A stretch of DNA of 64,000 bases from Secundilactobacillus odoratitofui DSM 19909 = JCM 15043. GTDB taxonomy: Bacteria > Bacillota > Bacilli > Lactobacillales > Lactobacillaceae. Every line of letters starts with the position of its first letter. Position 1 is the stretch's first letter. The position numbers and the translations under genes are program-made. The stretch is from contig NZ_AZEE01000027.1 of assembly GCF_001434895.1 (NCBI RefSeq), forward strand, positions 307,360 to 371,359, read 5' to 3'. Below the pieces are notes generated by a model. That model had not been told where the DNA came from and did not search any database. It was given only the letters and a program-made list of their open reading frames with translations. Shown here one piece after another: positions 40,392 through 60,658 of the stretch.

Positions 40392-40493
40392 GGCTACTCC
40401 CGCCCCCTCCGTGTTACTAGTTAACGCTATTTTACCCTATGAGTAAATACCGCGTGCGTAAGTGGTGAGGTTTGGGGGGTAAGTGGCAAAATC

Positions 40494-40573
40494 AGAGTGA
40501 GATAAAAGTCGTTTAGCACCCAGAATAGAAGGCCTTCTATAGCCGGGTGCTGACTTTTATCGCGGATTTCGGC
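40494..40573 (+). repeat. Structured repeat family 1, copy C
   Basis: AGAGTG, outer stem GATAAAAGTC, bulge GTTT, AGCACCC, an inner AGAAGGCCTTCT palindrome, then GGGTGCT-GACTTTTATC and GCGGATTTCGGC. Confidence 0.75.
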
Positions 40574-40855: not shown

Positions 40856-40872
40856 TTTAAGGTCACTTTAAG
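40856..40872 (+). promoter_or_regulatory. Perfect CiaR-type direct repeat upstream of the operon
   Basis: TTTAAG-GTCAC-TTTAAG matches the streptococcal CiaR binding site TTTAAG-N5-TTTAAG exactly. The 10-base offset to a -10 box seen at the two hairpin-RNA promoters leads here only to a weak TAGGCT; a better CATACT lies 21 bases downstream. Confidence 0.5.
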
Positions 40873-40922: not shown

Positions 40923-42944
40923 ATGACAACTGCCCAACAACAAGCACTGTTTTATGACGTCGAACAGCAAGCGATTACGTTTCAAGGTCGTAAGTTATTT
41001 CAACAGCAACCCAATTGTCCCATCGCTGTCCTCGGTCAAGGCCAAGCAGACGTTTCAATGTACCGTGGCAACTTCGACATTCAAGATCATTTACTGACGA
41101 AGTGGCCATTAACGATTCAAGATCATCAGGCTAATACAGACCGCTTAGTCTTGACGCTGGGCACCCACGATACCGCCTACTTATGCCTGACGTTTCAAAT
41201 TGATGCGCAAGCGCAACTGATTGTTACACCAGAAGTCCTGACCGGCAGTTGGAATCGCCTCTGGTTGCGCATCGTGGCTGAGCCAAGCGATAACGTTTAC
41301 GGTGGTGGTGAGCAACTTTCCTACTTCAATTTACGTGGACACCATTTTCCGCTCTGGTCTTCAGAACCAGGCATCGGCCGCAACAAGCATACCTTAACCA
41401 CCTTCCAAGCCGACCAAGACCATGCCGGTGGCGATTATTACACCACTAACTTCCCGGAAGCCACCTTCATTTCCAGCCAAAAGTACTACTGTCATGCGAC
41501 TACATACGCCTACGCTGACTTCGACTTTAGTCAACCGGGCTACTACGACTTACAGTTCTGGGCAATACCAGAACGGCTACAATTCGGTACGGCAGATGAT
41601 TACCCGTCACTAATCTCTAAACTGGCCGATCAACTTGGGCGAACTCAGGGCTTACCAGAATGGACTAATAACGGTGTCATCATCGGACTTCAAGGCGGTA
41701 CTGAACGAGTTGAAGCCATTAAACAAAAGCTGCAACAACATCACGTTCAGCTAGCCGGTCTATGGTGTCAAGACTGGGAAGGCACCCAAACCACCAGTTT
41801 TGGCAAACGAAACTACTGGGAGTGGCGAGCGGATTCAAAGCTCTACCCGCAACTAAAAGCGCACATCCAAAACTGGCAACAAGAAAAGTTGCAGTTTTTA
41901 GCCTACATTAACCCCTATGTTGTTGAAGATTCCGATCTATTTAATGAGGGCGCTGCTCATGGCTACTTTGCTAAAACGCAGGCGGGTGACGTTTACCTCG
42001 TTGATTTTGGTGAATTTCTCTGTGGGGTTGTTGATTTCACTAACCCGGCCGCTTACGACTGGTTCAAACAAGTGATTCAGCATAACTTAATCGATATCGG
42101 CATCAAGGGTTGGATGGCCGACTTTGGTGAATATTTACCAACCGACGTTGTCCTGTACGACAACTCTGATCCAATGGTCCGCCACAATCAATGGCCAATG
42201 TTATGGGCAAAATGCAATTATGACGCCGTTCAGGAATCTGCCCATCCCGAAGAACTCGTTTACTTCATGCGTGCTGGCGCCACGGGAAGCCAAAAATATG
42301 GTCAGCTACTCTGGGCGGGTGATCAAAGCGTGAACTGGAGTAAAGATGACGGTATTGTTTCAACGATTCCAGCCGCCCTTTCTAGCGGCATGGTCGGCAT
42401 CAGCCTTAGCCACAGTGATATCGGTGGCTACACCAGCATGTACGGTAACATCCGTTCCAAGGAATTGTTCATGCGCTGGGCCGAAATGGCTGCCTTCACA
42501 CCCGTTATGCGGACACACGAAGGTAACCGACCTCAACAAAACTTCCAAGTCTACGACGACGATGACGCCATGGCTCATTTGGCAAGCTGCACCCAGATAT
42601 TTACCAAATTGACACCGTACCGACAGGCGGTCGTCAACGAGGCCGTCACATCTGGTTTACCGGCACAACGCCCGCTCATGATGTACTACGACGAACCGGC
42701 CGCTGATAACTGTCAAACCGAGTATCTTTTTGGCCGCGACCTACTGGTAGCCCCCGTTGTACAACCACATCAAGCCAGTTGGACCGTCTACTTACCAGAT
42801 GATCAGTGGGTCAACCTCTGGACGGGGGAGTCTTACACCGGCGGTACTTACGACGTGCCAGCACCGATTGGTCAGACACCGGTATTCTACCGTCAAAGTA
42901 GTGCCTTCACCGAATTATTTAAAGAAATAGGAGCCCTGAAATGA
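40923..42944 (+). CDS. sftG: Sulfoquinovosidase (GH31, YihQ-type)
   Basis: A 673-residue GH31 glycosidase without a signal peptide, so it should act in the cytoplasm on imported sulfoquinovosides and release sulfoquinovose. The sulfonate-recognition residues of E. coli YihQ (Q262, Q288, R301, W304, Y508) align to Q257, Q283, R296, W299 and Y503. The nucleophile D405 (MADFGEYLP) is D400 and the acid/base D472 (WAGDQSVNW) is D467, all at the same offset of five. This set distinguishes sulfoquinovosidases from alpha-glucosidases. TTGGAGG lies upstream of the ATG. It is the first gene of the operon and overlaps the dehydrogenase by 4 bases. YihQ numbering is from memory. Confidence 0.88.
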   Translation: MTTAQQQALFYDVEQQAITFQGRKLFQQQPNCPIAVLGQGQADVSMYRGNFDIQDHLLTKWPLTIQDHQANTDRLVLTLGTHDTAYLCLTFQIDAQAQLIVTPEVLTGSWNRLWLRIVAEPSDNVYGGGEQLSYFNLRGHHFPLWSSEPGIGRNKHTLTTFQADQDHAGGDYYTTNFPEATFISSQKYYCHATTYAYADFDFSQPGYYDLQFWAIPERLQFGTADDYPSLISKLADQLGRTQGLPEWTNNGVIIGLQGGTERVEAIKQKLQQHHVQLAGLWCQDWEGTQTTSFGKRNYWEWRADSKLYPQLKAHIQNWQQEKLQFLAYINPYVVEDSDLFNEGAAHGYFAKTQAGDVYLVDFGEFLCGVVDFTNPAAYDWFKQVIQHNLIDIGIKGWMADFGEYLPTDVVLYDNSDPMVRHNQWPMLWAKCNYDAVQESAHPEELVYFMRAGATGSQKYGQLLWAGDQSVNWSKDDGIVSTIPAALSSGMVGISLSHSDIGGYTSMYGNIRSKELFMRWAEMAAFTPVMRTHEGNRPQQNFQVYDDDDAMAHLASCTQIFTKLTPYRQAVVNEAVTSGLPAQRPLMMYYDEPAADNCQTEYLFGRDLLVAPVVQPHQASWTVYLPDDQWVNLWTGESYTGGTYDVPAPIGQTPVFYRQSSAFTELFKEIGALK

Positions 42945-44326
42945 ACTATCAAGTAATCAATCCTTACACCGGCGCACTAGAAAACGAGTATGCGCAAACC
43001 AGTGATGATGCGCTACAAAGTGCATTGCAAACTGGTGATACCTATTACCATGCCCACTACAATGAACCATTAGCCATTCGGGTAAAACAGTTACAAGCGA
43101 TTGCTGATGCGTTCCGTCAAAACGTTGAACAGCTTGCCTTCACCGCTACCACTAACATGGGCAAGCTGCACCGCGAGGCTATCGGCGAATCAACCGCAGC
43201 GGCCAACATCGCCCAATACTACGTGGACCACGGTCCAGCTGCATTGCTACCTAAGTCCTACACCTACCAAGACGGTAAACAGGCCACGCTCCATTACGAT
43301 GCCACTGGCATTGTCATGGCCATTGAGCCCTGGAACTTTCCTTATACCCAAGTAATGCGCGTTTTTGCGCCAAATTTTTTGCTTGGTAATCCGGTTATTT
43401 TAAAGCACGCCCCAATTGTGGCAGGGTGCGCCGAATTATTCGAAAAACTGGTCTGGTCGACTAATGTCGATCACGGTGCGTTTCAAAACCTCTTCTTGTC
43501 AAACGAGCAAACTGCTGATGCGATTGCTGACGACCGTGTCCAAGGCGTGGCCTTAACGGGTTCGCCAAAAGCCGGTCGCGCAGTTGCCGCTGAAGCAGCA
43601 GCGGTCCTAACGAAGTCCACCCTTGAGTTAGGCGGTAACGACGCCTTCATCGTTCTTAAAAGTGCTGATGTTGATCAAGCAGTGAAAGATGGTGCAGTAT
43701 CTCGACTGCGTAATGCTGGTCAAGTCTGTACATCGGCAAAACGTTTCATCGTCCACGAAGCGGTGGCAGACGAGTTCATCGCCAAAATGACCGCAGTTTT
43801 TGAATCACAGGTCCTGGGTGATCCAATGGCTGACGCAACGACGCTAGCACCACTATCTTCCAAGGCAGCTCAAACAACCCTCCAACAGCAAGTCGACACT
43901 GCGATTGCCAACGGCGCCAAGGTACTGGTTCCCGGCGGTGCGGTCACTGATCAACCAGGTAACGGCTTTAAGCCCGTGCTCTTGACTAACTTGTTACCAG
44001 ACAATCCGATGTATGACACTGAGTTATTTGGACCAGTTGGCCAAATTCAAGTCGTTCGGTCAACCGAAGAAGCCTTGAGTATCGCGAACCATTCTCAATA
44101 CGGGCTAGCCGGGGCCGTCTACGCTGGCACTACGGCCGAGGCCCAGGAAGTCGCTGAAAAGCTTGAAACTGGTCAAATTTTTCTTAATCAACCGTCAAAC
44201 GGTTATCCCGAACTCCCCTTCGGTGGCGTCAAAAATTCTGGCTACGGCCGTGAAATGAGCGACCTGGCGCTTTACGAATTTGCCAACCAAAAAATGATTG
44301 CTCAAGGTACTAAGGAGGCGCACTAA
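42941..44326 (+). CDS. sftD: Aldehyde dehydrogenase, predicted sulfolactaldehyde dehydrogenase
   Basis: A 461-residue NAD(P)-dependent aldehyde dehydrogenase of the succinate-semialdehyde (GabD) type. It shows the catalytic Cys263 in NAGQVCTSAKR, the general base Glu229 in TLELGGND, Lys155 in ILKHA and the cofactor loop ALTGSPKAGRA. In transaldolase-type sulfoglycolysis the equivalent enzyme oxidises 3-sulfolactaldehyde to 3-sulfolactate. The start overlaps the GH31 stop (ATGA) with TAGGAG upstream. The substrate is inferred from operon context only; by itself the sequence would be called a semialdehyde dehydrogenase. Confidence 0.78.
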   Translation: MNYQVINPYTGALENEYAQTSDDALQSALQTGDTYYHAHYNEPLAIRVKQLQAIADAFRQNVEQLAFTATTNMGKLHREAIGESTAAANIAQYYVDHGPAALLPKSYTYQDGKQATLHYDATGIVMAIEPWNFPYTQVMRVFAPNFLLGNPVILKHAPIVAGCAELFEKLVWSTNVDHGAFQNLFLSNEQTADAIADDRVQGVALTGSPKAGRAVAAEAAAVLTKSTLELGGNDAFIVLKSADVDQAVKDGAVSRLRNAGQVCTSAKRFIVHEAVADEFIAKMTAVFESQVLGDPMADATTLAPLSSKAAQTTLQQQVDTAIANGAKVLVPGGAVTDQPGNGFKPVLLTNLLPDNPMYDTELFGPVGQIQVVRSTEEALSIANHSQYGLAGAVYAGTTAEAQEVAEKLETGQIFLNQPSNGYPELPFGGVKNSGYGREMSDLALYEFANQKMIAQGTKEAH

Positions 44327-44329
44327 ACT

Positions 44330-45751
44330 ATGGATGCTACTGAAACACACGCTGCAACACAAAAAAACGATCAAGCACCACGAACTGTAACCCTGCGAAA
44401 CAAAATTGCTTACGCTGTCGGTGATATGGGGAATAACTTCCTGTTTGATATGGGACAGCTTTACCTCTTAAACTACTTCACTGACCAGGTTGGCTTACCC
44501 AGCGCTGCTGCCGGGACCGTCTTCTTAGTGGCCAAAATCTGGGACGCCTTCGCTGATATGGGCGTTGGGACCTGGATCGATAACCGGACCAACATTAGTA
44601 AACGTGGTAAGTTCCGACCATTCTTGCTTTGGGCCGCAATTCCACTCGCCATGCTCTTAATCGCCAACTTTACTACGCCAAACTTCTCGGTTACGGGTAA
44701 GTTGATTTGGGCCTACGTTGCCTACATGCTGTTTGGGACTTGTTACAGTATCTCAAACGTGCCATTTGGCTCGATGATCCCAACGATGACGCGAAACAGT
44801 CAGGAACGTTCCGAACTGGCTTCTTGGCGTCAAGCGGGATCTAACATGGGACTGATGTTAGCCACTATTGGCTTTATGCCGATTGTTAATTCAATGACTA
44901 ACGAAGGCACTGGTTACACCATTGCGGTGGTGGTTTTCGCCGTTCTTGGGGTTGCCGCACAGTGGTTCTCCTACGCCAACATTAAGGAAAATTACTCGTC
45001 ACCTGCCAAAGCTAAGATCAATAAAAAGGACTTAAAGGCATCTTTTAAAGCCCTGTTGAAAAACAAACCATTATTGACACTCAGTATCGTGAACCTATTT
45101 ACCTTCTCAGCCTTCAACCTGAAGCTGACCGTACAGGTTTATTACTGCAAGTACATTCTTCAAAACACAACCGCTGAATCCTTGTTGGGTGTATTCAGTA
45201 TCGGGATGGTCTTCGTCTCAGTCATGCTGGCACCACTTTTAACGAAGCGATTTGATAAAAAATACGTGTACATGATGGGCTGCGCCATTTGGGCCATCGC
45301 TGACATTTTAGGCTTCTTCTTTGCAAACAATACTTTCTTATTCGTCTTCTTTACCGCGATTGCTTACCTCGGTGACGGTTTTACCAGTGCCCTAAACTGG
45401 GCGTTAGTTTCTGACTGTGTGGAGTACGGTGAATGGCAAACTGGCATCCGCTCAGAAGGGATGGTTTACTCCTTCTTCACCTATTTCCGTAAGCTATCAC
45501 AAGCCATCGCTGGCTTCGTTCCCGGCATCATCTTAGCCTGGGTTGGCTACGTGCCAGGTAAAACCCAGACTGCCACAGCACTAATGGGTATCCGCGGGCT
45601 AATGTTCCTCTACTCCGCCGTACTATCCATCGCCACGATCATCTTGATGTATTACGCCTACTCACTCACCGAAAAGCGTTACGGCACCATCGTGTCAGAC
45701 TTGCTAAAGCGACGCGGTTCCGAACGCATTGAACCAGCCGGTGGCAGATAA
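44330..45751 (+). CDS. GPH-family sugar:cation symporter, predicted sulfoquinovose or SQ-glycoside importer
   Basis: A 473-residue MelB/GPH-type symporter with twelve hydrophobic helices. It opens with the typical RNKIAYAVGDMGNNFLFDMG, then DAFADMGVGTWIDN and RGKFRPFLLWAAIPLA. The E. coli sulfoquinovose operon also uses a GPH permease (YihO), which fits import of the sulfosugar or its glyceryl glycoside. GGAGG lies before the ATG, 3 bases after the dehydrogenase stop. No dedicated exporter for the sulfolactate product is seen in the operon. Confidence 0.85.
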   Translation: MDATETHAATQKNDQAPRTVTLRNKIAYAVGDMGNNFLFDMGQLYLLNYFTDQVGLPSAAAGTVFLVAKIWDAFADMGVGTWIDNRTNISKRGKFRPFLLWAAIPLAMLLIANFTTPNFSVTGKLIWAYVAYMLFGTCYSISNVPFGSMIPTMTRNSQERSELASWRQAGSNMGLMLATIGFMPIVNSMTNEGTGYTIAVVVFAVLGVAAQWFSYANIKENYSSPAKAKINKKDLKASFKALLKNKPLLTLSIVNLFTFSAFNLKLTVQVYYCKYILQNTTAESLLGVFSIGMVFVSVMLAPLLTKRFDKKYVYMMGCAIWAIADILGFFFANNTFLFVFFTAIAYLGDGFTSALNWALVSDCVEYGEWQTGIRSEGMVYSFFTYFRKLSQAIAGFVPGIILAWVGYVPGKTQTATALMGIRGLMFLYSAVLSIATIILMYYAYSLTEKRYGTIVSDLLKRRGSERIEPAGGR

Positions 45752-45806
45752 ATCGAACAGTCAACAACGCAGATAACTAAATATCACTCATTAAGGAGAA
45801 TGACTC

Positions 45807-46475
45807 ATGAAATACTTTTTAGACAGTGCCAAATTAGATGAAATTAAACTCGCATACGAGCAATACGGCTTCGACGGCGTCACCACTAACCCTAAGCACA
45901 TCATGGCCAGTGGCAAGCCCTTCATGACCGCTATTAAAGACATCGCGGCCTACGTAGCTGACAAACCCGACTTCCCCGTTTCAGTGGAAATCAACCCACA
46001 CTTGGACAACGCCGATGACATGGTCAAAATGGCCACTGACATCAGCGCACTTTCAAGTAACTTCGTCATCAAAATCCCGACCAATAAAGAAGGCATCAAG
46101 GCGGCTCGGCGTCTAGAACACGCTGGCATCCGAACTAATATGACCTTGGTTTTCTCACCCGCGCAAGCCATCATGCCTGGTAAGTTACACGCCAAGTACG
46201 TTTCACCCTTCGTTGGCTGGAAGGAAGATTACGGTGACGATGGCATGAACTACGTCAAAGACGTGGTCGATATCTACCGCAACTACGACTTTGATACTGA
46301 GATCATCGTGGCGGCCATCCGTAATGCCAAGCAAATTCAACAAGCCGCCATTTACGGCGCCGATATTGTAACTTGCTCACTGGCCGTCTACGAAAACAGT
46401 TTTTACAACCCTTACACAGACTTAGGTCTCCAAATCTTCCAAGATGCTTGGGACCACACAGAAACGGGTGATTAA
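45807..46475 (+). CDS. sftT: Transaldolase-family protein, predicted sulfofructose transaldolase
   Basis: A 222-residue single-domain transaldolase of the FSA/TalC size class. The Schiff-base lysine is K89 in FVIKIPTNKEG; D6 (FLDSAKLDE) and N28 (GVTTNPKH) are the usual partners. The segment after the barrel (SPFVGWKEDYG) has Trp138 where transaldolases normally carry the phosphate-binding Arg of SPFVGR, which would fit a sulfonate rather than a phosphate. Predicted reaction: 6-deoxy-6-sulfofructose plus glyceraldehyde 3-phosphate to sulfolactaldehyde plus fructose 6-phosphate. AAGGAG lies before the ATG. The next gene starts directly at the stop. Confidence 0.8.
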   Translation: MKYFLDSAKLDEIKLAYEQYGFDGVTTNPKHIMASGKPFMTAIKDIAAYVADKPDFPVSVEINPHLDNADDMVKMATDISALSSNFVIKIPTNKEGIKAARRLEHAGIRTNMTLVFSPAQAIMPGKLHAKYVSPFVGWKEDYGDDGMNYVKDVVDIYRNYDFDTEIIVAAIRNAKQIQQAAIYGADIVTCSLAVYENSFYNPYTDLGLQIFQDAWDHTETGD

Positions 46476-47159
46476 ATGACAACTCTAGAACGCTTAAGAT
46501 TAGAAAATCCAGACGTCAATATCCGAACCGTCAACGACCCCAGCTTCGCGCTTTATGGCCGCGTCGTTACCCTACCCTACCAAGATCAATTAATGGCAAC
46601 TTTGACGGATCAAACAACCATCCCGACTGAAAATAACGTCTACGTCAGAGAGGACGGACAATTTCTCAATGACGAACAACGTAGCGCCATCAGCTGGGAT
46701 TACTACGGTGAACAAACCATTGAGATTGGCTATTGTAACGGCAACAGCGACCGCATCAATGCATTTGAATTTCACAACTGTTCAGAGCTTAATCTAGCTG
46801 GTACCGACATGCTCCTGTTCTTGAGCCACCGCAGAGAACTAAATGGTAAAACAATGTCGACTGAACAAGCGCACGCCTATTTTGTGCCTAAGGGGACCGC
46901 AATTGAAGTTTATCCAACCACGTTGCACTTTGCGCCCATTCGTGTTCATACGACTGGCTTTAAATGTTTAGTCATTCTAACCGCTGGCACCAACACGCCA
47001 TTAAGCCGTGAACGTGACGCCGACGACCTCTTATTCCAACACAACAAGTGGTTACTGACCCACCCTGAAAACCGACGCATGGTCAACAATGGTGCCTTTG
47101 TTGGCCTAACCGGCGAAAATACTCAGATCGAACCAATTCAACACGTGGAGGTAAACTAA
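46476..47159 (+). CDS. DUF4867 family protein, candidate sulfosugar isomerase or accessory
   Basis: A 227-residue cupin-like protein. It shows the DUF4867 pattern: SFALYGRVVTLPY near the start, IEIGYCNGNSDRINAFEFHN in the middle, then AYFVPKGTAIEVYPTTLHF and CLVILTAGTNTPL. The ATG begins at the base after the transaldolase stop, so the two are tightly coupled. DUF4867 genes occur in sulfo-TAL clusters as I recall, and this protein is one of two candidates for the sulfoquinovose-to-sulfofructose isomerase; the other is encoded next. The pattern of conserved His and Glu in the barrel suggests metal-dependent chemistry. Confidence 0.7.
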   Translation: MTTLERLRLENPDVNIRTVNDPSFALYGRVVTLPYQDQLMATLTDQTTIPTENNVYVREDGQFLNDEQRSAISWDYYGEQTIEIGYCNGNSDRINAFEFHNCSELNLAGTDMLLFLSHRRELNGKTMSTEQAHAYFVPKGTAIEVYPTTLHFAPIRVHTTGFKCLVILTAGTNTPLSRERDADDLLFQHNKWLLTHPENRRMVNNGAFVGLTGENTQIEPIQHVEVN

Positions 47160-48491
47160 TTGACTCAAATTCTATACTTACCAGTTGTCCGTCGAAAGTT
47201 CGACGCTGATACGGCTGAACAAATCATGCAACAAACCAAAAAACAGCTTGCCGAATATAACTTGGTCGCACCTGATGCAGCCCTTGGCGACCCAACCGAA
47301 CTCAGCAGTTACTTGAGTTCGGTCCGCAATCAACACTTTGCCGGGATTATTTTCCACAACACGACCTTTACCGATGCTGAGTTCATCAAACTCGTGCACG
47401 AATGGTACCCAACCACACCCATTTTGCTACTAGCACCGCATGAACCAAGCGTTGGCGGTTGGCTACGGCTTAACGCCCTCACCGGTATCATGAGTTCCGG
47501 CAATTATCTTGCCAGTCAACATCACCAGTTCGATCACATCTACGGGAATCCTGACGAGCCAGCCGTTCATGATGAAATCACCCGCTTCGTCAAAGCCGTC
47601 CAGGTGAAAGATGAACTGGCATCACTCAACATTGGTGTTGTCGGGACCTACCCACCTGGTTTCTTCTTTTCGGACGCCAACGCTGCACAGTTAAAAGCGC
47701 ACTTTGGCACTAATTTGATTCACTACAACATCGATGACGCTTTCGACCGCGCATATGCGCTCAAACCTGCCGACTATTCGGACCAACTCGACTATGCGAA
47801 AGCCCACTTCACTGGCCTAGACGCGCAGGGTGATGAAACCATTCGCTTCGTTAAGTTTGCGACCTTAATGCGTCAGTATCAAAAAGCTGATAACCTCGGC
47901 GCCTTAGCTTCGCGTTGTTGGCCAGACTTTTTCGATAAATACCACAGCGCACCAGGTGCGGTTTGGTCACAACTCTGCGACCAGCAATTACCAACTGCAA
48001 TGGAGTGCGACATTCACGGCGCACTTTCGATGTACATTTTGCAAGAAATGACCGCTAATCGTGATGCTATCTTCTTGGGTGACTTTTCTAGCATGGACCC
48101 GAGTGATAACACCATGACGACTTGGCACGATTACGGCGCCTACTCCCTAGCAAACCCCAAGTACGGTGTTGAAGCCAGCGTGCATCCTAACCGTAAAGTG
48201 CCAGTTAGTCCTAACATGGCACTCAAACCTGGTCAAGTGACCTTCCTGCGCGTGCACTATAACGAACTCGACGGTTATTCATTAGCCGTGACTACTGGTA
48301 ACGTGTTAGATGCTGAGCCACAATTTAACGGCGCCTCAGGTCGGGTTCAAATGGACTCACCAGTTGAAGCACTCGTTGACCAATTCGTTGAAGCTGGCTA
48401 CGAATCACACTTCGCCGTAGCCTATGGCGATTACGTCGCTGATTTAAAGGAATTGGGCCGACTCTTAGGCTTAACTGTTAACGTCTACTAA
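47160..48491 (+). CDS. L-fucose/arabinose isomerase-like protein, candidate SQ isomerase
   Basis: A 443-residue protein of the fucose/arabinose isomerase superfamily. Residues 1-150 form a Rossmann-like N-terminal part. The metal-site motifs follow: E282 in AMECDIHGALSMYI and D308 in FLGDFSSMD, and a later His-rich segment (VTFLRVHYNELDG) may supply the third ligand. The start is TTG, with GGAGG 8 bases upstream and directly after the DUF4867 stop. An aldose-ketose isomerase is exactly what the pathway needs between the glycosidase and the transaldolase. It could instead act on a pentose or deoxyhexose. Confidence 0.72.
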   Translation: MTQILYLPVVRRKFDADTAEQIMQQTKKQLAEYNLVAPDAALGDPTELSSYLSSVRNQHFAGIIFHNTTFTDAEFIKLVHEWYPTTPILLLAPHEPSVGGWLRLNALTGIMSSGNYLASQHHQFDHIYGNPDEPAVHDEITRFVKAVQVKDELASLNIGVVGTYPPGFFFSDANAAQLKAHFGTNLIHYNIDDAFDRAYALKPADYSDQLDYAKAHFTGLDAQGDETIRFVKFATLMRQYQKADNLGALASRCWPDFFDKYHSAPGAVWSQLCDQQLPTAMECDIHGALSMYILQEMTANRDAIFLGDFSSMDPSDNTMTTWHDYGAYSLANPKYGVEASVHPNRKVPVSPNMALKPGQVTFLRVHYNELDGYSLAVTTGNVLDAEPQFNGASGRVQMDSPVEALVDQFVEAGYESHFAVAYGDYVADLKELGRLLGLTVNVY

Positions 48492-49113: not shown

Positions 49114-49433
49114 TCGTCTCACGTCCTGGCTTTCGTTTTAGATAATTGTCTAGTCCAATTTATCATGTGCGCTTATCCCTGCCAAGGTAGTTTTGATTGG
49201 GATTTCCAGAGAGAAAAACGGTGCCATTAACAGAAATGTATCAATGACGTTGAAATGTTTCAAAAGTTTTTTAACCTAATTAATCACCAGTTATGTCATT
49301 CAAGGCATCTCCAGAATTAATGCCATAAATACTGCTATCACGGCCTTCAAGCCTGTAACTAATCTTTATGAGAAGCCCATCATTTGGGCTCAAACATTTC
49401 CTCATTTTTCGAAAAATAGCAATTTTAATTCAC
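49114..49433. other. A/T-rich intergenic upstream of hairpin RNA 1
   Basis: No gene is supported. A small hairpin (GCCCA/TGGGC, about 49376-49389) is the only structure. The region leads into the CiaR-type repeat at 49434. Confidence 0.4.
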
Positions 49434-49466
49434 TTTAAGGTCCATTTAAGCTCGGGCCAGTATATT
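49434..49466 (+). promoter_or_regulatory. Promoter of hairpin RNA 1 with CiaR-type repeat
   Basis: TTTAAG-N5-TTTAAG (49434-49439 and 49445-49450), then exactly 10 bases to a TATATT -10 box (49461-49466). This is the architecture of streptococcal CiaR-activated promoters. The promoter at 52406-52460 has the same spacing. Confidence 0.65.
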
Positions 49467-49472
49467 AATCCT

Positions 49473-49767
49473 TGTACTTAACGTACAACTCCAAACAAGC
49501 AAAACAACGTTTCATATTCTATTCTCCCAAATAGATGACACAAAGAATTGTTTTCTCCCCTAAGAAGACAACCCCGGTCATCGCTCCCCCTAATAGCGAT
49601 GATCACAATCCAAATGTTGTGGGCGACCTCCCAATCGTCTGCAACGCCCCTAAAATTCTTCTTCCTATTCTCCCAAATAGATGAAGAGACAGATTGCGCG
49701 CAGTCTCCCAGCTGCCACAACGTATATATTAAAAACCAGCAGTTCTCCCAAACTGCTGGTTTTTTGT
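49473..49767 (+). ncRNA. Hairpin-array RNA 1 (csRNA-like, anti-SD loops)
   Basis: The predicted transcript starts with a small TTGTAC/GTACAA hairpin and then holds at least seven hairpins with unrelated stems but shared C-rich loops. The stems are CTATT (49519), TTGTTTTCT (49548, loop CCCCTA), TCATCGCT (49578, loop CCCCCTAAT), GTTGTGGGCGA (49616, loop CCTCCCAA), CTATT again (49665, loop CTCCCA), GCAG (about 49700, loop TCTCCCAG) and a terminator stem AACCAGCAGTT (49733, loop CTCCCA) with a T-run. The loops are complementary to Shine-Dalgarno GGGAG, as in S. pneumoniae csRNAs. No reading frame is present. The precise ends are estimates. Confidence 0.7.
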
Positions 49768-49788: not shown

Positions 49789-50190
49789 TTAGTCCTGGTT
49801 TGGCTGAATATAGCGATATTCCTGCGTCAGTCCACCATAACCCCACGCCTCTGAGGCAACATCTTGTAGCACCACGTAACTTGTCTTTGCAAGGTCACCG
49901 TATAATTTAGCCATAAAATCAAAAACAGCTTTAACAAAGGTCGCCTTCTCATCACGGGTATTAGTCGCTTCCGTAATTTTAATCTCGGTGAAAAAACCGG
50001 TTTGATGCGTTTCGGTCAACGATTGACCACCAATAAACCAGTCATCAGGTGACGTGAACTTAACGTCAACCGCGGCGACATCAGCAGCCTTGCCAAGCTT
50101 AGTAACCGCTAAATCGGTCAACCCCTTGGCAATTTGCTGGGTACTAATATCCTTTTGTGCAGTGGCAACTCTAACTCTTAAATATGGCAT
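49789..50190 (-). CDS. Tautomerase-superfamily protein
   Basis: A 133-residue protein of the 4-oxalocrotonate tautomerase/MIF fold. The N-terminal Met is followed by Pro2 (MPYLRVRV), the catalytic base after Met removal. Two beta-alpha-beta units are suggested by ISTQQIAKGLTDLAVTKLG and EKATFVKAVFDFMAKLYG. The length fits a fused two-unit form. GAGGAAC lies before the ATG. The substrate is unknown; related enzymes isomerise 2-oxo acids or dehalogenate. Confidence 0.78.
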   Translation of the reverse strand: MPYLRVRVATAQKDISTQQIAKGLTDLAVTKLGKAADVAAVDVKFTSPDDWFIGGQSLTETHQTGFFTEIKITEATNTRDEKATFVKAVFDFMAKLYGDLAKTSYVVLQDVASEAWGYGGLTQEYRYIQPNQD

Positions 50191-52099: not shown

Positions 52100-52325
52100 C
52101 AGCCGTAGTGCCAGAAGCAGACGGGGGTGTGGGTGGTTGCAGTGATAAATGATGTTAAGGCGAAGTAATGCAAGAAGTGATCTACTTCTTGTGTTGCTTC
52201 GCCTTAACATCATTGGACGAATTTAAGACTTGCGGTTTTTGCGAGGCTCAAATCCGAGGTGGAAAACGCGATAGCGGTTGAAGCCGGTCCCACAGCAACC
52301 ACCCACATCCCCGTCTGCTGGCGGC
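52100..52325 (-). repeat. Structured repeat family 2, copy F3
   Basis: Outer 22-base arms (52119-52140 and 52295-52316, one wobble) enclose, on the minus strand, GCTGTGGGACCGG, CCACCTCG, a second stem GGATTTGAG/CTTAAATTC (with wobbles), CGTCCA, a third stem of more than 25 bp (AATGATGTTAAGGCGAAG core) and TCACTGC. Motif order and flanks match copies F1 and F2. Confidence 0.75.
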
Positions 52326-52405: not shown

Positions 52406-52460
52406 TTTAAGTTCCACTTAAGCTACCATTAAGTCTCACTTAAGCCAGGCCAGTTATAGT
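52406..52460 (+). promoter_or_regulatory. Promoter of hairpin RNA 2 with four-part CiaR-type repeat
   Basis: Four half-sites in exact 11-base register: TTTAAG (52406), CTTAAG (52417), ATTAAG (52428) and CTTAAG (52439), then 10 bases to a TATAGT -10 box (52455-52460). The same 10-base offset is seen at 49434-49466. Confidence 0.65.
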
Positions 52461-52466
52461 AATACA

Positions 52467-53000
52467 TGTACTAAAGGTACAACACGTTAACATCTCTCAA
52501 AACGAAAGGAAGTCTGCTCATGAAAAAAATGATTGCTGTCATTCCTGCTTTAGTTACGGTGGCGACCCTCGGGTACGTGACCTATCGAAGTCGAAGAACA
52601 AGTTAACCGGAGGCGACAAACTTAAATAGATAACTTAACAACTTAACATTAACATCCTTCCCCTAGGATAACCCACACAAACGAACAACGTTTTCACTCT
52701 TGATTCTCCCTAACAAACGATAATACACAACCATAGTTGTCCTCCCAAACAACCATGATTAAAACGGTCACCATATCCTCCCAAGTATGGCGCGCCCATA
52801 TCCAACCGCGACTGAGTCACCTCAACCTGATCCAGTCACACAACAACTTTCTTCCTATTCTCCCAAATAGAACGAAATACCCCAAACAATTGACGTCCTC
52901 CCAAGCGTCGATTACAAACCAAATTTCTTTTCTATCCCCCTAAAATAGAAAAACGCAACAACGCCTGACATCCTCCCAAATGTCAGGCGTTGTTGCGTTA
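52467..53000 (+). ncRNA. Hairpin-array RNA 2 (csRNA-like, anti-SD loops) with embedded peptide gene
   Basis: The predicted transcript opens with a TGTAC/GTACA hairpin, carries a 28-codon gene (52520-52606) and then an array of hairpins. The stems are ATCCT (52654, loop TCCCCT), CATAGTTGT (52732, loop CCTCCCAA), CCATAT (52771, loop CCTCCCAA), CTATT (52855, loop CTCCCA), AATTGACGT (52888, loop CCTCCCAA), TTTTCTAT (52928, loop CCCCCTAAA) and a perfect 20-bp final stem (52952-52971 with 52980-52999, loop CCTCCCAA). Stem sequences are unrelated, loops are conserved. The last stem probably ends the RNA, although no T-run follows. Ends are estimates. Confidence 0.7.
52520..52606 (+). CDS. 28-residue membrane peptide inside hairpin RNA 2
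   Basis: The frame MKKMIAVIPALVTVATLGYV... has one hydrophobic helix (residues 4-22) and a basic tail (YRSRRTS). AAAGGAAG lies about 8 bases before the ATG. Its size and charge pattern resemble type I toxin peptides or small regulatory membrane proteins. It lies between the promoter and the hairpins, so the RNA would be both messenger and regulator. No counterpart occurs in hairpin RNA 1. Confidence 0.6.
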   Translation: MKKMIAVIPALVTVATLGYVTYRSRRTS

Positions 53001-53035
53001 TAATGAGAGGTATGAATATCAAGGGAGTTGGTACT

Positions 53036-58590: not shown

Positions 58591-59952
58591 TTATTTTGGC
58601 AACGTCAGCGTAAAAACACTACCACGGGGATCGTTATCTGTTATTGAAATACTACCATGGTTTAAACTAACCAGTTGTGAAACAATGGAAAGTCCCAGAC
58701 CGGTACCGGGAATTTGACTGGAACGTGCGGTATCGACTCGGTAGAAACGATCAAAAATCAAATTTTTTTGATTGTTGGGGATTCCCGGCCCCTGATCTGA
58801 AACAGCAATCGTCACGTTATCATCTTGCGGTTTACAAGTGATTTTGATTGGCTGATTCGTTGGCGAATACTTTGCAGCGTTGTCGAGCAACGCAAGGATC
58901 ATCTGTTTTAAACTGTTTTCATCGACCAATACCGACAAAGTAGGCGGACAATCCACCTGAACCTTTTGAGTCATTTGTTCTTGGTATGGCTTTAATAGCT
59001 GGGTTAAAACTGGTGCCAATTCAAGTCGTTGGGGACTTAATGTTAATCGCTCGTTTCGAGTGATTGTCAATAAGGACTCCACGAGCTGCTGTAACCGGTT
59101 AGATTCGCTATCCAAAAAATCAATCGCTTCGCTCAGAACTTCAGGATGCTCGGCTCCCCGACGTTTCAAAAGACTAATGTAACCACGGATTACCGTCAAT
59201 GGCGTTCTCAATTCGTGTGAAGCATCAGAAACAAATTGCTGCTCATGGATTAACTCTTGGTTTAATGCTGATAAGAGCTGATTAAAACTTTTAGCAAGCT
59301 GCTGAACTTCTAGCGGCGTGGTGGGTACCGGCAGTGGCGTTGTCGAAGGTTGCGTTGTTTCGGTTCGTTCTTGCACAGCGTCTGTTAGATTGGTGAGTGG
59401 TTGTGTCAGCCGGCTTGCGTGCATATTCATTAACAAAATACCCAGTATTGAACTGATACCAACAGCTAATAACACCGCTAGCACAACAACTTCTAGCTGA
59501 CTGATAATATAATCAAGCTTTAACCAAACCTGATAGCGCGCCTTTGTTGAGCTTTTGTTACTGTAATAAAATAAGCCCCGTTTAGGAACGTATACAATGG
59601 CGGGCGTGAGTTGACGACCAGTTTTATCGGCCAAATTTGCGAACTGTCTGGCATGAGTTGAGTAAAATAAGTTTGCCGGATAACCTGCTGTTGAATGTAC
59701 ATTGATTTTGACATACGTTGTAGATGGTCCCTGTTCACTCGATGCTTGCCAGGCATCTGTATTGGGTGTTTTGTGGACAAATGTTGTTTCTAAGGACTTA
59801 ACCATTTTGTTGGCAGCTTGTTCGCCATTTTGAAGAAGCAAGACGGCCATTACGCCGAGGGTGACGAGTAAACTCACCAAAGCGGTTATGATTAACGTGC
59901 GACGATACGCACTGGCGATGACGTGCCGGTTAGATTCCGGTTGATTGGCCAT
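58591..59952 (-). CDS. Sensor histidine kinase
   Basis: A 453-residue membrane kinase with two membrane helices (about 14-36 and 152-175) around an extracellular domain of about 115 residues, then HAMP, the HisKA box FVSDASHELRTPLTVIRGYI with its His, and the ATPase boxes NAAKYS, DQGPGIP and GTGLGLSIV. Its start overlaps the response-regulator gene by 23 bases, with GAGGTG upstream. The ligand is unknown. It resembles ArlS/CsrS-type kinases in layout. Confidence 0.92.
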   Translation of the reverse strand: MANQPESNRHVIASAYRRTLIITALVSLLVTLGVMAVLLLQNGEQAANKMVKSLETTFVHKTPNTDAWQASSEQGPSTTYVKINVHSTAGYPANLFYSTHARQFANLADKTGRQLTPAIVYVPKRGLFYYSNKSSTKARYQVWLKLDYIISQLEVVVLAVLLAVGISSILGILLMNMHASRLTQPLTNLTDAVQERTETTQPSTTPLPVPTTPLEVQQLAKSFNQLLSALNQELIHEQQFVSDASHELRTPLTVIRGYISLLKRRGAEHPEVLSEAIDFLDSESNRLQQLVESLLTITRNERLTLSPQRLELAPVLTQLLKPYQEQMTQKVQVDCPPTLSVLVDENSLKQMILALLDNAAKYSPTNQPIKITCKPQDDNVTIAVSDQGPGIPNNQKNLIFDRFYRVDTARSSQIPGTGLGLSIVSQLVSLNHGSISITDNDPRGSVFTLTLPK

Positions 59953-60655
59953 GTTGGTTCACCTCACTCAACGTATAGCCAATACCACGAACAGTTCGAA
60001 TTTGAATCTCTGAGCCAATTAAAGGTTCTAGTTTTTGTCGTAACTGTCGGATATAAACGTCAACGATGTTAGTTTGACCAACAAAATCAGTGCCCCACAC
60101 TGCATCTAAAATCTCATCGCGATTCAGTGTTTGATTGGCGTGTCGCATTAAGGTGAGTAACAAACCGTACTCCCGCTGAGTCAACTGAATTTGTTGTGTT
60201 TGAAATTTCACTTGGTGTGCTTTGGTATCAAGCGTTAGTTCGCCAATTTGATAATGAACCTGATTTTCAGATTTTTGGCTTTGTCGGCGAAGCCAAACTC
60301 GAATTCGAGCTAGCAATTCCTCCATTTCAAACGGCTTAGTGAGGTAGTCATCCGCACCACTGTCTAAGCCAGCAACCTTGTCCCCAGAATAATCCCGAGC
60401 GGTCAAAAAAATAATTGGAATTTGAGTATCTATTTTACGAATATGTCGGAGTACCCCTAACCCGTCAATCTCAGGAATCATCCAATCTAAGATAATTAAG
60501 TCAAGTTGACCTCGATTGGCATTGTACATCGCTAATGCCTCTTTACCGGTGCCCGCAAGTAAAACATCATAGTGTTCAAATGAAAGTTCAGTTCGCAAAA
60601 GCGCCTGCACGCCCGGTTCATCTTCGACCACTAGTATTCGTTTTGTCACCATCAT
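59930..60655 (-). CDS. OmpR-family response regulator
   Basis: A 241-residue regulator. The receiver has DE in VVEDEPGV, the phospho-acceptor Asp in LDLIILDWMIPE, Thr in FLTARD and Lys in YLTKPF. The C-terminal winged helix (LTQREYGLLLTLMRH, then VDVYIRQLRQKL) is intact. The start is uncertain among tandem ATG codons (60655/60652). It is the first gene of the two-component operon, and the likely target is the DUF347 gene. It is not obviously CiaR, so the CiaR-type repeats elsewhere need another regulator. Confidence 0.9.
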   Translation of the reverse strand: MMVTKRILVVEDEPGVQALLRTELSFEHYDVLLAGTGKEALAMYNANRGQLDLIILDWMIPEIDGLGVLRHIRKIDTQIPIIFLTARDYSGDKVAGLDSGADDYLTKPFEMEELLARIRVWLRRQSQKSENQVHYQIGELTLDTKAHQVKFQTQQIQLTQREYGLLLTLMRHANQTLNRDEILDAVWGTDFVGQTNIVDVYIRQLRQKLEPLIGSEIQIRTVRGIGYTLSEVNQHGQSTGI

Positions 60656-60658
60656 CAC

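Follow-up and report, generated by a model that had tools for sequence, protein, structure and literature searches.

What would a series of short hairpins with nearly the same C-rich loop on different stems be for, if it is an RNA at all? This question is raised by a locus of Secundilactobacillus odoratitofui DSM 19909 = JCM 15043, a member of a genus of bacteria of food and plants, in a stretch of 64,000 nucleotides (contig NZ_AZEE01000027.1) which is called the window here. The original prediction had placed seven hairpins at 49434-49767 behind a promoter of the streptococcal csRNA type; position, number of hairpins and promoter type, the last as an exact TTTAAG repeat, were all confirmed. 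The features of this locus (array 1) are as follows.

49423-49428, + strand: third half-site, weaker than the repeat (sequence)
49434-49450, + strand: TTTAAG-N5-TTTAAG direct repeat (exact match)
49461-49466, + strand: TATATT, -10-like, 10 bases 3' of the repeat (sequence)
49472-49488, + strand: leader hairpin, without UCCC (fold)
49518-49535, + strand: hairpin 1, TCTATT(CTCCCA)AATAGA, loop CUCCCA (fold, hairpin check)
49548-49571, + strand: hairpin 2 (B), TTGTTTTCT(CCCCTA)AGAAGACAA, loop CCCCUA (fold, hairpin check)
49576-49604, + strand: hairpin 3 (C), GGTCATCGCT(CCCCCTAAT)AGCGATGATC, loop as RNA CCCCCUAAU (fold, hairpin check)
49615-49646, + strand: hairpin 4 (D), TGTTGTGGGCGA(CCTCCCAA)TCGTCTGCAACG, loop as RNA CCUCCCAA (fold, hairpin check)
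49665-49680, + strand: hairpin 5 (core), CTATT(CTCCCA)AATAG, loop CUCCCA (hairpin check)
49700-49715, + strand: hairpin 6 (F), GCAGT(CTCCCA)GCTGC, loop CUCCCA (fold, hairpin check)
49731-49764, + strand: hairpin 7, AAAAACCAGCAGTT(CTCCCA)AACTGCTGGTTTTT, terminator-like stem-loop with a U-run to 49767 (sequence, fold, hairpin check)

The predicted array-1 RNA is about 295 nt long and consists of the leader and the seven hairpins. As had been claimed the loops display CUCCC or CCCCU, and they do so beyond chance: six hairpins with a UCCC loop were observed where shuffles averaged 0.17 and never exceeded 2, and since 0 of 1000 shuffles reached six a chance structure was rejected. The seven stems, which had been described as all different, comprise six stem sequences, because hairpins 1 and 5 both contain CTATT(CTCCCA)AATAG. 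The fold energy z was -7.95 on the + strand and -4.35 on the - strand, and 7 of the 61 stem pairs are G-U on + and would be A-C on -, indicating a + strand RNA; a minus-strand RNA was rejected on both grounds. All nine [UC]CCC clusters of array 1 were at least 0.8 unpaired, as were 45 of 50 clusters in seven arrays pooled compared with 62% in shuffles. A looser hairpin scan of the host genome (G000) gave 11 clusters of three or four in 800 kb, with the sole cluster of four weak-stemmed; under a stricter scan, 400 kb of G000 and 400 kb of the related genome G007 were both free of clusters of three.

A second array follows downstream on the same strand, with an open reading frame between its TTAAG half-sites and its hairpins.

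52406-52999, + strand: array 2 as a whole (sequence, fold)
52406-52444, + strand: four phased TTAAG half-sites (TTTAAG, CTTAAG, ATTAAG, CTTAAG), N5 apart
52520-52606, + strand: 28-aa ORF MKKMIAVIPALVTVATLGYVTYRSRRTS (ORF comparison)
52654-52999, + strand: seven hairpins, four with loop CCUCCCAA (DNA CCTCCCAA)

The fold z was -7.07 for the stretch 52462-53005. The ORF, with a hydrophobic stretch and a basic tail, has similar relatives of 28-29 aa in S. folii (L028 11141), G009 (L131 1610) and G002 (L235 364); it gave no convincing Pfam match, and a DUF1127 search with it and its S. folii relative gave no match at E up to 10. The last hairpin (52952-52999) lacks a + strand U-run behind it and was called by a terminator scan on the - strand only. 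We also observed a T-run on the - strand after this hairpin, at which leftward transcripts could end, and a long near-perfect inverted repeat at 52150-52213 (GATGTTAAGGCGAAG...CTTCGCCTTAACATC) in the gap ahead of the array.

Related arrays were found in four other Secundilactobacillus genomes (S. silagincola, S. folii, S. angelensis and G014), the DNA search matching 5 of 15 genus genomes including this one, and both array types are present in S. folii. A pattern search of the 15 genomes found the array-1 promoter GTATATTAA with 0 mismatches in the same five, and the core CTATTCTCCCAAATA of hairpin 5 is invariant across the five array-1 orthologues. The exact core motif was restricted to five genus genomes, with seven two-mismatch matches elsewhere. 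Two exact-pattern matches outside Lactobacillaceae kinds were taken as chance (9 of 12 records were other bacteria or archaea), and plasmid-borne relatives were rejected for want of any match. In G002 and G009 the 28-aa ORF is accompanied by few hairpins, and G013 has CCCCCUAA loops 3' of an altered ORF. In G004, G006, G007, G008, G010 and G011 nothing of the kind came from pattern and DNA searches, supplemented for G004, G007, G010 and G011 by inspection of the GNAT neighbourhood, a coverage that was not exhaustive.

The orthologues allowed loops and stems to be compared. Twenty-eight hairpin species pairs were matched by order and by hand, with bulged or doubtful rows omitted (G014 in C and F, S. 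silagincola in F and B, S. folii in D, S. angelensis in B), and in 20 of them stem identity was 50% or lower, the changes being mostly two-sided and pairing-keeping, and the loop retained [UC]CCC. The sequence beyond the seed was not conserved in the matched hairpins. Several loops had lost the motif: the loop of hairpin B reads AUAU or UUUU in three relatives (G014, S. silagincola and S. angelensis), that of hairpin F reads UUCUC in G014, and none of the four array-1 relatives keeps UCCC in the terminator loop. A strict hairpin finder gave four hairpins for array 1 of S. folii (reached by 0 of 1000 shuffles) and three for its array 2 (1 of 1000), three for S. angelensis (1 of 1000), two for S. 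silagincola (14 of 1000) and one for G014, which 140 of 1000 shuffles reached and which is not significant. Thus most relatives' loops, not all, keep UCCC or CCCC while the stems change with compensation. The original prediction had argued for selection on a structure that displays CUCCC and had named loops that change as fast as stems as the finding that would speak against it; for most pairs they do not, and the claim stands for these 20 and falls short for hairpins B and F and the terminator loop in the relatives listed. We are highly confident that the arrays are real RNAs, as predicted, with selected C-rich loops.

We compared the arrays with known systems. A known Rfam family as their identity was rejected by Rfam search; the ar14 model gave 23.1 bits, on array 2 only, below its cut-off of 58.8. 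The Streptococcus csRNAs of the CiaR regulon have an NTTAAG-N5-TTTAAG promoter, an anti-Shine-Dalgarno (SD) sequence and a length of 51-202 nt with mostly two stem-loops and the anti-SD sequence between them, 13 csRNAs having more complex structures (PMC3091779). Array 1 shares with them the NTTAAG-N5-TTTAAG repeat upstream of a -10 and differs in its length, its leader with seven hairpins and its anti-SD sequence in serial loops. The LhrC family of Listeria monocytogenes is described as having redundant UCCC seeds that bind SD regions, control by the two-component system LisRK and surface-protein targets among others (PMC4132741, PMC8079631). Several accessible UCCC motifs are common to LhrC and the arrays, but the LhrC RNAs as described there are 105-121 nt long with two stem-loops and two or three seeds, and are multicopy instead of one long array; array 1 conforms neither to that length nor to the LhrC layout of stem-loop A, a single strand and a terminator loop. 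In sX13 of Xanthomonas, stems with C-rich loops repress mRNAs that have G-rich motifs near the start (PMC3771888), though with three loops and in an unrelated host and locus. The arrays would work like LhrC and sX13, yet by the tests made are a member of none of the families compared.

The loops of CcsR1-4 bear CCUCCUCCC. These RNAs belong to the CIN1 locus (CcaF1-CcsR1-4) of Rhodobacter sphaeroides, described as a small-protein gene followed by tandem RNAs on one transcript (PMC10253847, PMC8307010), and in this order of a small ORF and tandem RNA structures it is like array 2. CIN1 differs in its four separate RNase E-cut RNAs, its sigma-factor promoter and its DUF1127 protein of 71 aa, whereas the 28-aa ORF of array 2 has no DUF1127 match. 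The alphaproteobacterial alpha-r14 or cuckoo RNAs (NfeR1) likewise carry one anti-SD motif on differing stems; alpha-r14 is described as three hairpins with highly different stems and one anti-SD motif unpaired (PMC10746234). The array motif is shorter and variable (CUCCC, CCCCU) compared with CCUCCUCCC of alpha-r14, which has three hairpins and belongs to another phylum. Since variable-stem anti-SD hairpins and tandem anti-SD RNAs are thus known from alphaproteobacteria (PMC10746234, PMC10253847), the statement that such a tandem array is undescribed was too strong. We found no paper on Secundilactobacillus with small RNA in open-licence PMC. What is new here is a larger number of seeds per transcript than in the known examples compared, a Gram-positive host and a regulator tied to the motif.

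CsrB-type decoys are also long hairpin series with one loop motif, in their case GGA loops that bind CsrA. An array could in the same way capture many copies of an RNA-binding protein which prefers UCCC and so free the mRNA targets of that protein, and two things are as such a decoy would have them: a single RNA shows many near-identical loops, on variable stems, and outside the seed the sequence is not conserved. The array loops are, however, C-rich on the + strand and without GGA, their complements are real SD sequences (GGGAG in 12.1% of the sampled ORF starts), and the known C-rich-loop RNAs compared, LhrC and sX13, act by pairing according to the papers cited above. We consider a protein decoy improbable.

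Slightly less probable again is that the arrays are leaders or 3' ends which control their neighbours in cis, such as the GNAT gene behind array 2, and do not act in trans. In G000, G001, G003, G012 and G014 an array is followed within about 1 kb by a GNAT orthologue, and array 2 lacks a + strand U-run after its last hairpin. Against control in cis, array 1 ends in a terminator-like structure and the next gene (49789-50190, - strand) is oppositely oriented, array 1 of S. folii is about 7 kb from the GNAT gene of that species, and C-rich RNAs with one UCCCC hairpin are predicted behind sites in G002, G005 and G009.

To examine candidate targets of pairing in trans we analyzed the start regions of 684 ORFs (864 kb of G000), where GGGAG occurred in 83 and GGGA in 156. 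A GGGA SD was found in 50 of 120 secreted or anchored genes and in 106 of 564 others (OR 3.09, p = 2.9e-7), the genes being ORFs from a simple script and the class resting on a crude hydrophobicity rule of our own. The bias was present in the first half (24/84 vs 39/274, p = 0.005) and in the held-out half (26/72 vs 31/254, p = 1.2e-5), while GGAGG, AGGAG and AAGGA had no bias towards secreted genes in G000. Loop matches of at least 8 nt were likewise commoner in secreted genes (28/84 vs 92/600 other genes, p = 0.00017). The GGGA bias recurred in S. folii with its two arrays (OR 3.14, p = 0.002), but also where no array was found, in G007 (OR 2.27, p = 0.02; GGAGG was enriched in secreted genes there too, p = 0.025) and G011 (OR 2.58, p = 0.007); it is therefore common to the genus and by itself no proof of array action on secreted genes. 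A GGGAG SD was present in 12.1% of genes in G000 and 9.3% in S. folii, the two species with arrays, compared with 5.4% and 7.2% in the pair G007 and G011.

Among 336 start regions, with a start choice that favoured GGGA in these counts and not in the secreted/GGGA tests, 42 had a loop match of at least 8 nt compared with a mean of 16.3 (maximum 28) in 60 shuffled-loop sets; among 336 mid-gene windows 4 had one. With the threshold lowered to 7 nt, 92 start regions matched, a count that shuffled loops can reach (mean 67, maximum 94). Long matches at gene starts in the window included TGGGAGGATG (8849) and TTTAGGGGGA (20751). Of the suggestion that many mRNAs could be silenced at once, pairing with ribosome-binding sites is plausible and the 7-nt count lends it no weight. 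We favour, with some confidence, the view that the array RNAs act mainly by pairing with SD sequences, a multi-seed antisense in the logic of LhrC; that secreted proteins are the main targets is a slightly less than even proposition. The short seeds match many SDs (the 156 of 684 starts with GGGA), so that an array might instead be a sponge for G-rich small RNAs or pair with many SDs unspecifically and damp translation in general, with no target class. The commonest G000 cores, GGAGG (31.6%) and AGGAG (23.8%), are however not the best match of most array-1 loops, although CCUCCC loops do match GGAGG, and we regard this as about as improbable as control in cis.

The repeat in front of the arrays could be connected to a regulator. 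In a genome of genus g33 the repeat precedes the very gene that encodes an OmpR-type regulator (L178). The best relative of this regulator in G000 is C7:61480-62160 (56% identity), which adjoins a histidine kinase gene; the response regulator within the window (59930-60658), the first candidate, was rejected at 37% identity to L178. There was no specific name among the 25 best NCBIfam matches, and CiaH homologues were not found in Lactobacillus according to PMC3091779. Orthologues of the regulator at 84-91% occur in 8 of 15 genus genomes, and a TTTAAG-driven C-rich RNA was predicted in all eight of these and in one of the seven others (G013, where the regulator was not found). Sites of the TTTAAG-N5-TTTAAG type were present in 101 of 397 Lactobacillaceae genomes. 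Of the 93 that have a close regulator (E below 2e-80), 71 had a site and 22 had none at the stringency used; of the 304 others, 30 had one. When the genus was left aside, sites were present in 38 of 43 genomes with the regulator at 63% identity or more against 54 of 339; the genomes are related and p-values for such counts overstate. A site and the regulator gene are separated by 40-194 bp in 15 genomes from six genera, the site pointing at the gene in 9 and away from it in 6, and the regulator gene of G000 has no adjoining TTTAAG repeat with up to two mismatches allowed. We consider it likely that this OmpR-type regulator drives the array RNAs.

Genes downstream of other sites encode LytR-CpsA-Psr, FtsX-type, mannosyltransferase-like, ApbE and ABC-transport proteins, a small set that leans towards the envelope. 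In the window a second exact TTTAAG-N5-TTTAAG (40856-40872, + strand), with a poor -10, lies about 50 bases 5' of a glycoside hydrolase family 31 operon (40923-48491). A near-identical promoter, TTTAAGTTAGCGTTAAGCTC, is present at two further G000 sites (L002 1500-1710 and L005 1500-2372); of these two, one stands before a small ORF (MSVTIAPSPVQTML...) and one before an ApbE-family gene. A palindromic element at 40493-40565 (GTGAGATAAAAGTCGTTTAGC...) recurs in related form next to the regulator gene (L214) and within the array locus of G013 (L111) and looks like an interspersed repeat.

Beyond the genus we inspected 30 loci, 20 further stretches and 30 loci from six g33 genomes, a minority of all sites. 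In other genera at least two [UC]CCC per 200 nt were found behind 16 of 29 ORF-less sites and behind 5 of 33 ORF-bearing sites, the mean behind ORF-less sites being 1.69 in sense, 1.07 in shuffles and 0.17 in antisense. On folding the motif was in loops at L149, L196, L199 and L202-L204. Judged by this small, unevenly drawn sample, the arrays seem to stand at the long extreme of a series. Five g33 loci (L165, L172, L174, L176, L180) have short, predicted ORF-less RNAs behind TTTAAG repeats with common ACCC(C)AAA and (C)TCATCTAATTTCA-like sequence and in most cases a terminator-like hairpin, and these look like one small csRNA-like family.

That the arrays are no RNA but a DNA repeat or a decaying mobile element that folds by accident is very improbable: interspersed inverted repeats are indeed present in these genomes, but the strand-specific G-U pairs, the promoter and terminator-like end in register, the compensating changes and the co-occurrence with one regulator all argue against it.

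From the computed structure, partial conservation, seed accessibility, regulator-motif link and SD statistics we infer the following course for antisense pairing. An OmpR-type two-component system that recognises TTTAAG-N5-TTTAAG would have both arrays in its regulon, and an inducing signal that activates this system would lead to their transcription, array 1 as a small RNA of about 295 nt that acts in trans, array 2 as an mRNA for the 28-aa peptide with the hairpin array as its 3' part. Each hairpin would display an open C-rich seed of 4-8 nt, (C)CUCCC(A) or CCCCU, which may pair with G-rich SDs (GGGA, GGGAG, AGGGG) and so repress by blocking translation, with secreted and surface proteins as the favoured target class and with multivalency arising from the seven or more seeds per molecule.

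More tentatively, and as a rather unlikely extension, the arrays may be part of a multivalent RNA class of lactobacilli with an evolving seed dosage, in which one regulator and promoter type would govern from one to at least seven interchangeable seeds, whose hairpins are gained and lost one at a time. Array 2 would in that case be dual-function, its conserved 28-aa membrane-type peptide serving the same response for which mRNAs of secreted proteins are silenced.

If the antisense reading is true, lactobacilli would gain a sensor-controlled RNA that tunes the load of secreted and surface proteins. The link of a regulator to a DNA motif makes this testable by the removal of one gene, and by comparison with the systems above tandem anti-SD hairpins would have arisen not only in alphaproteobacteria but in Gram-positives too. 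RNAs with one to at least seven seeds under one promoter type form a natural series, which may then be used to learn what an antisense RNA gains from multivalency.
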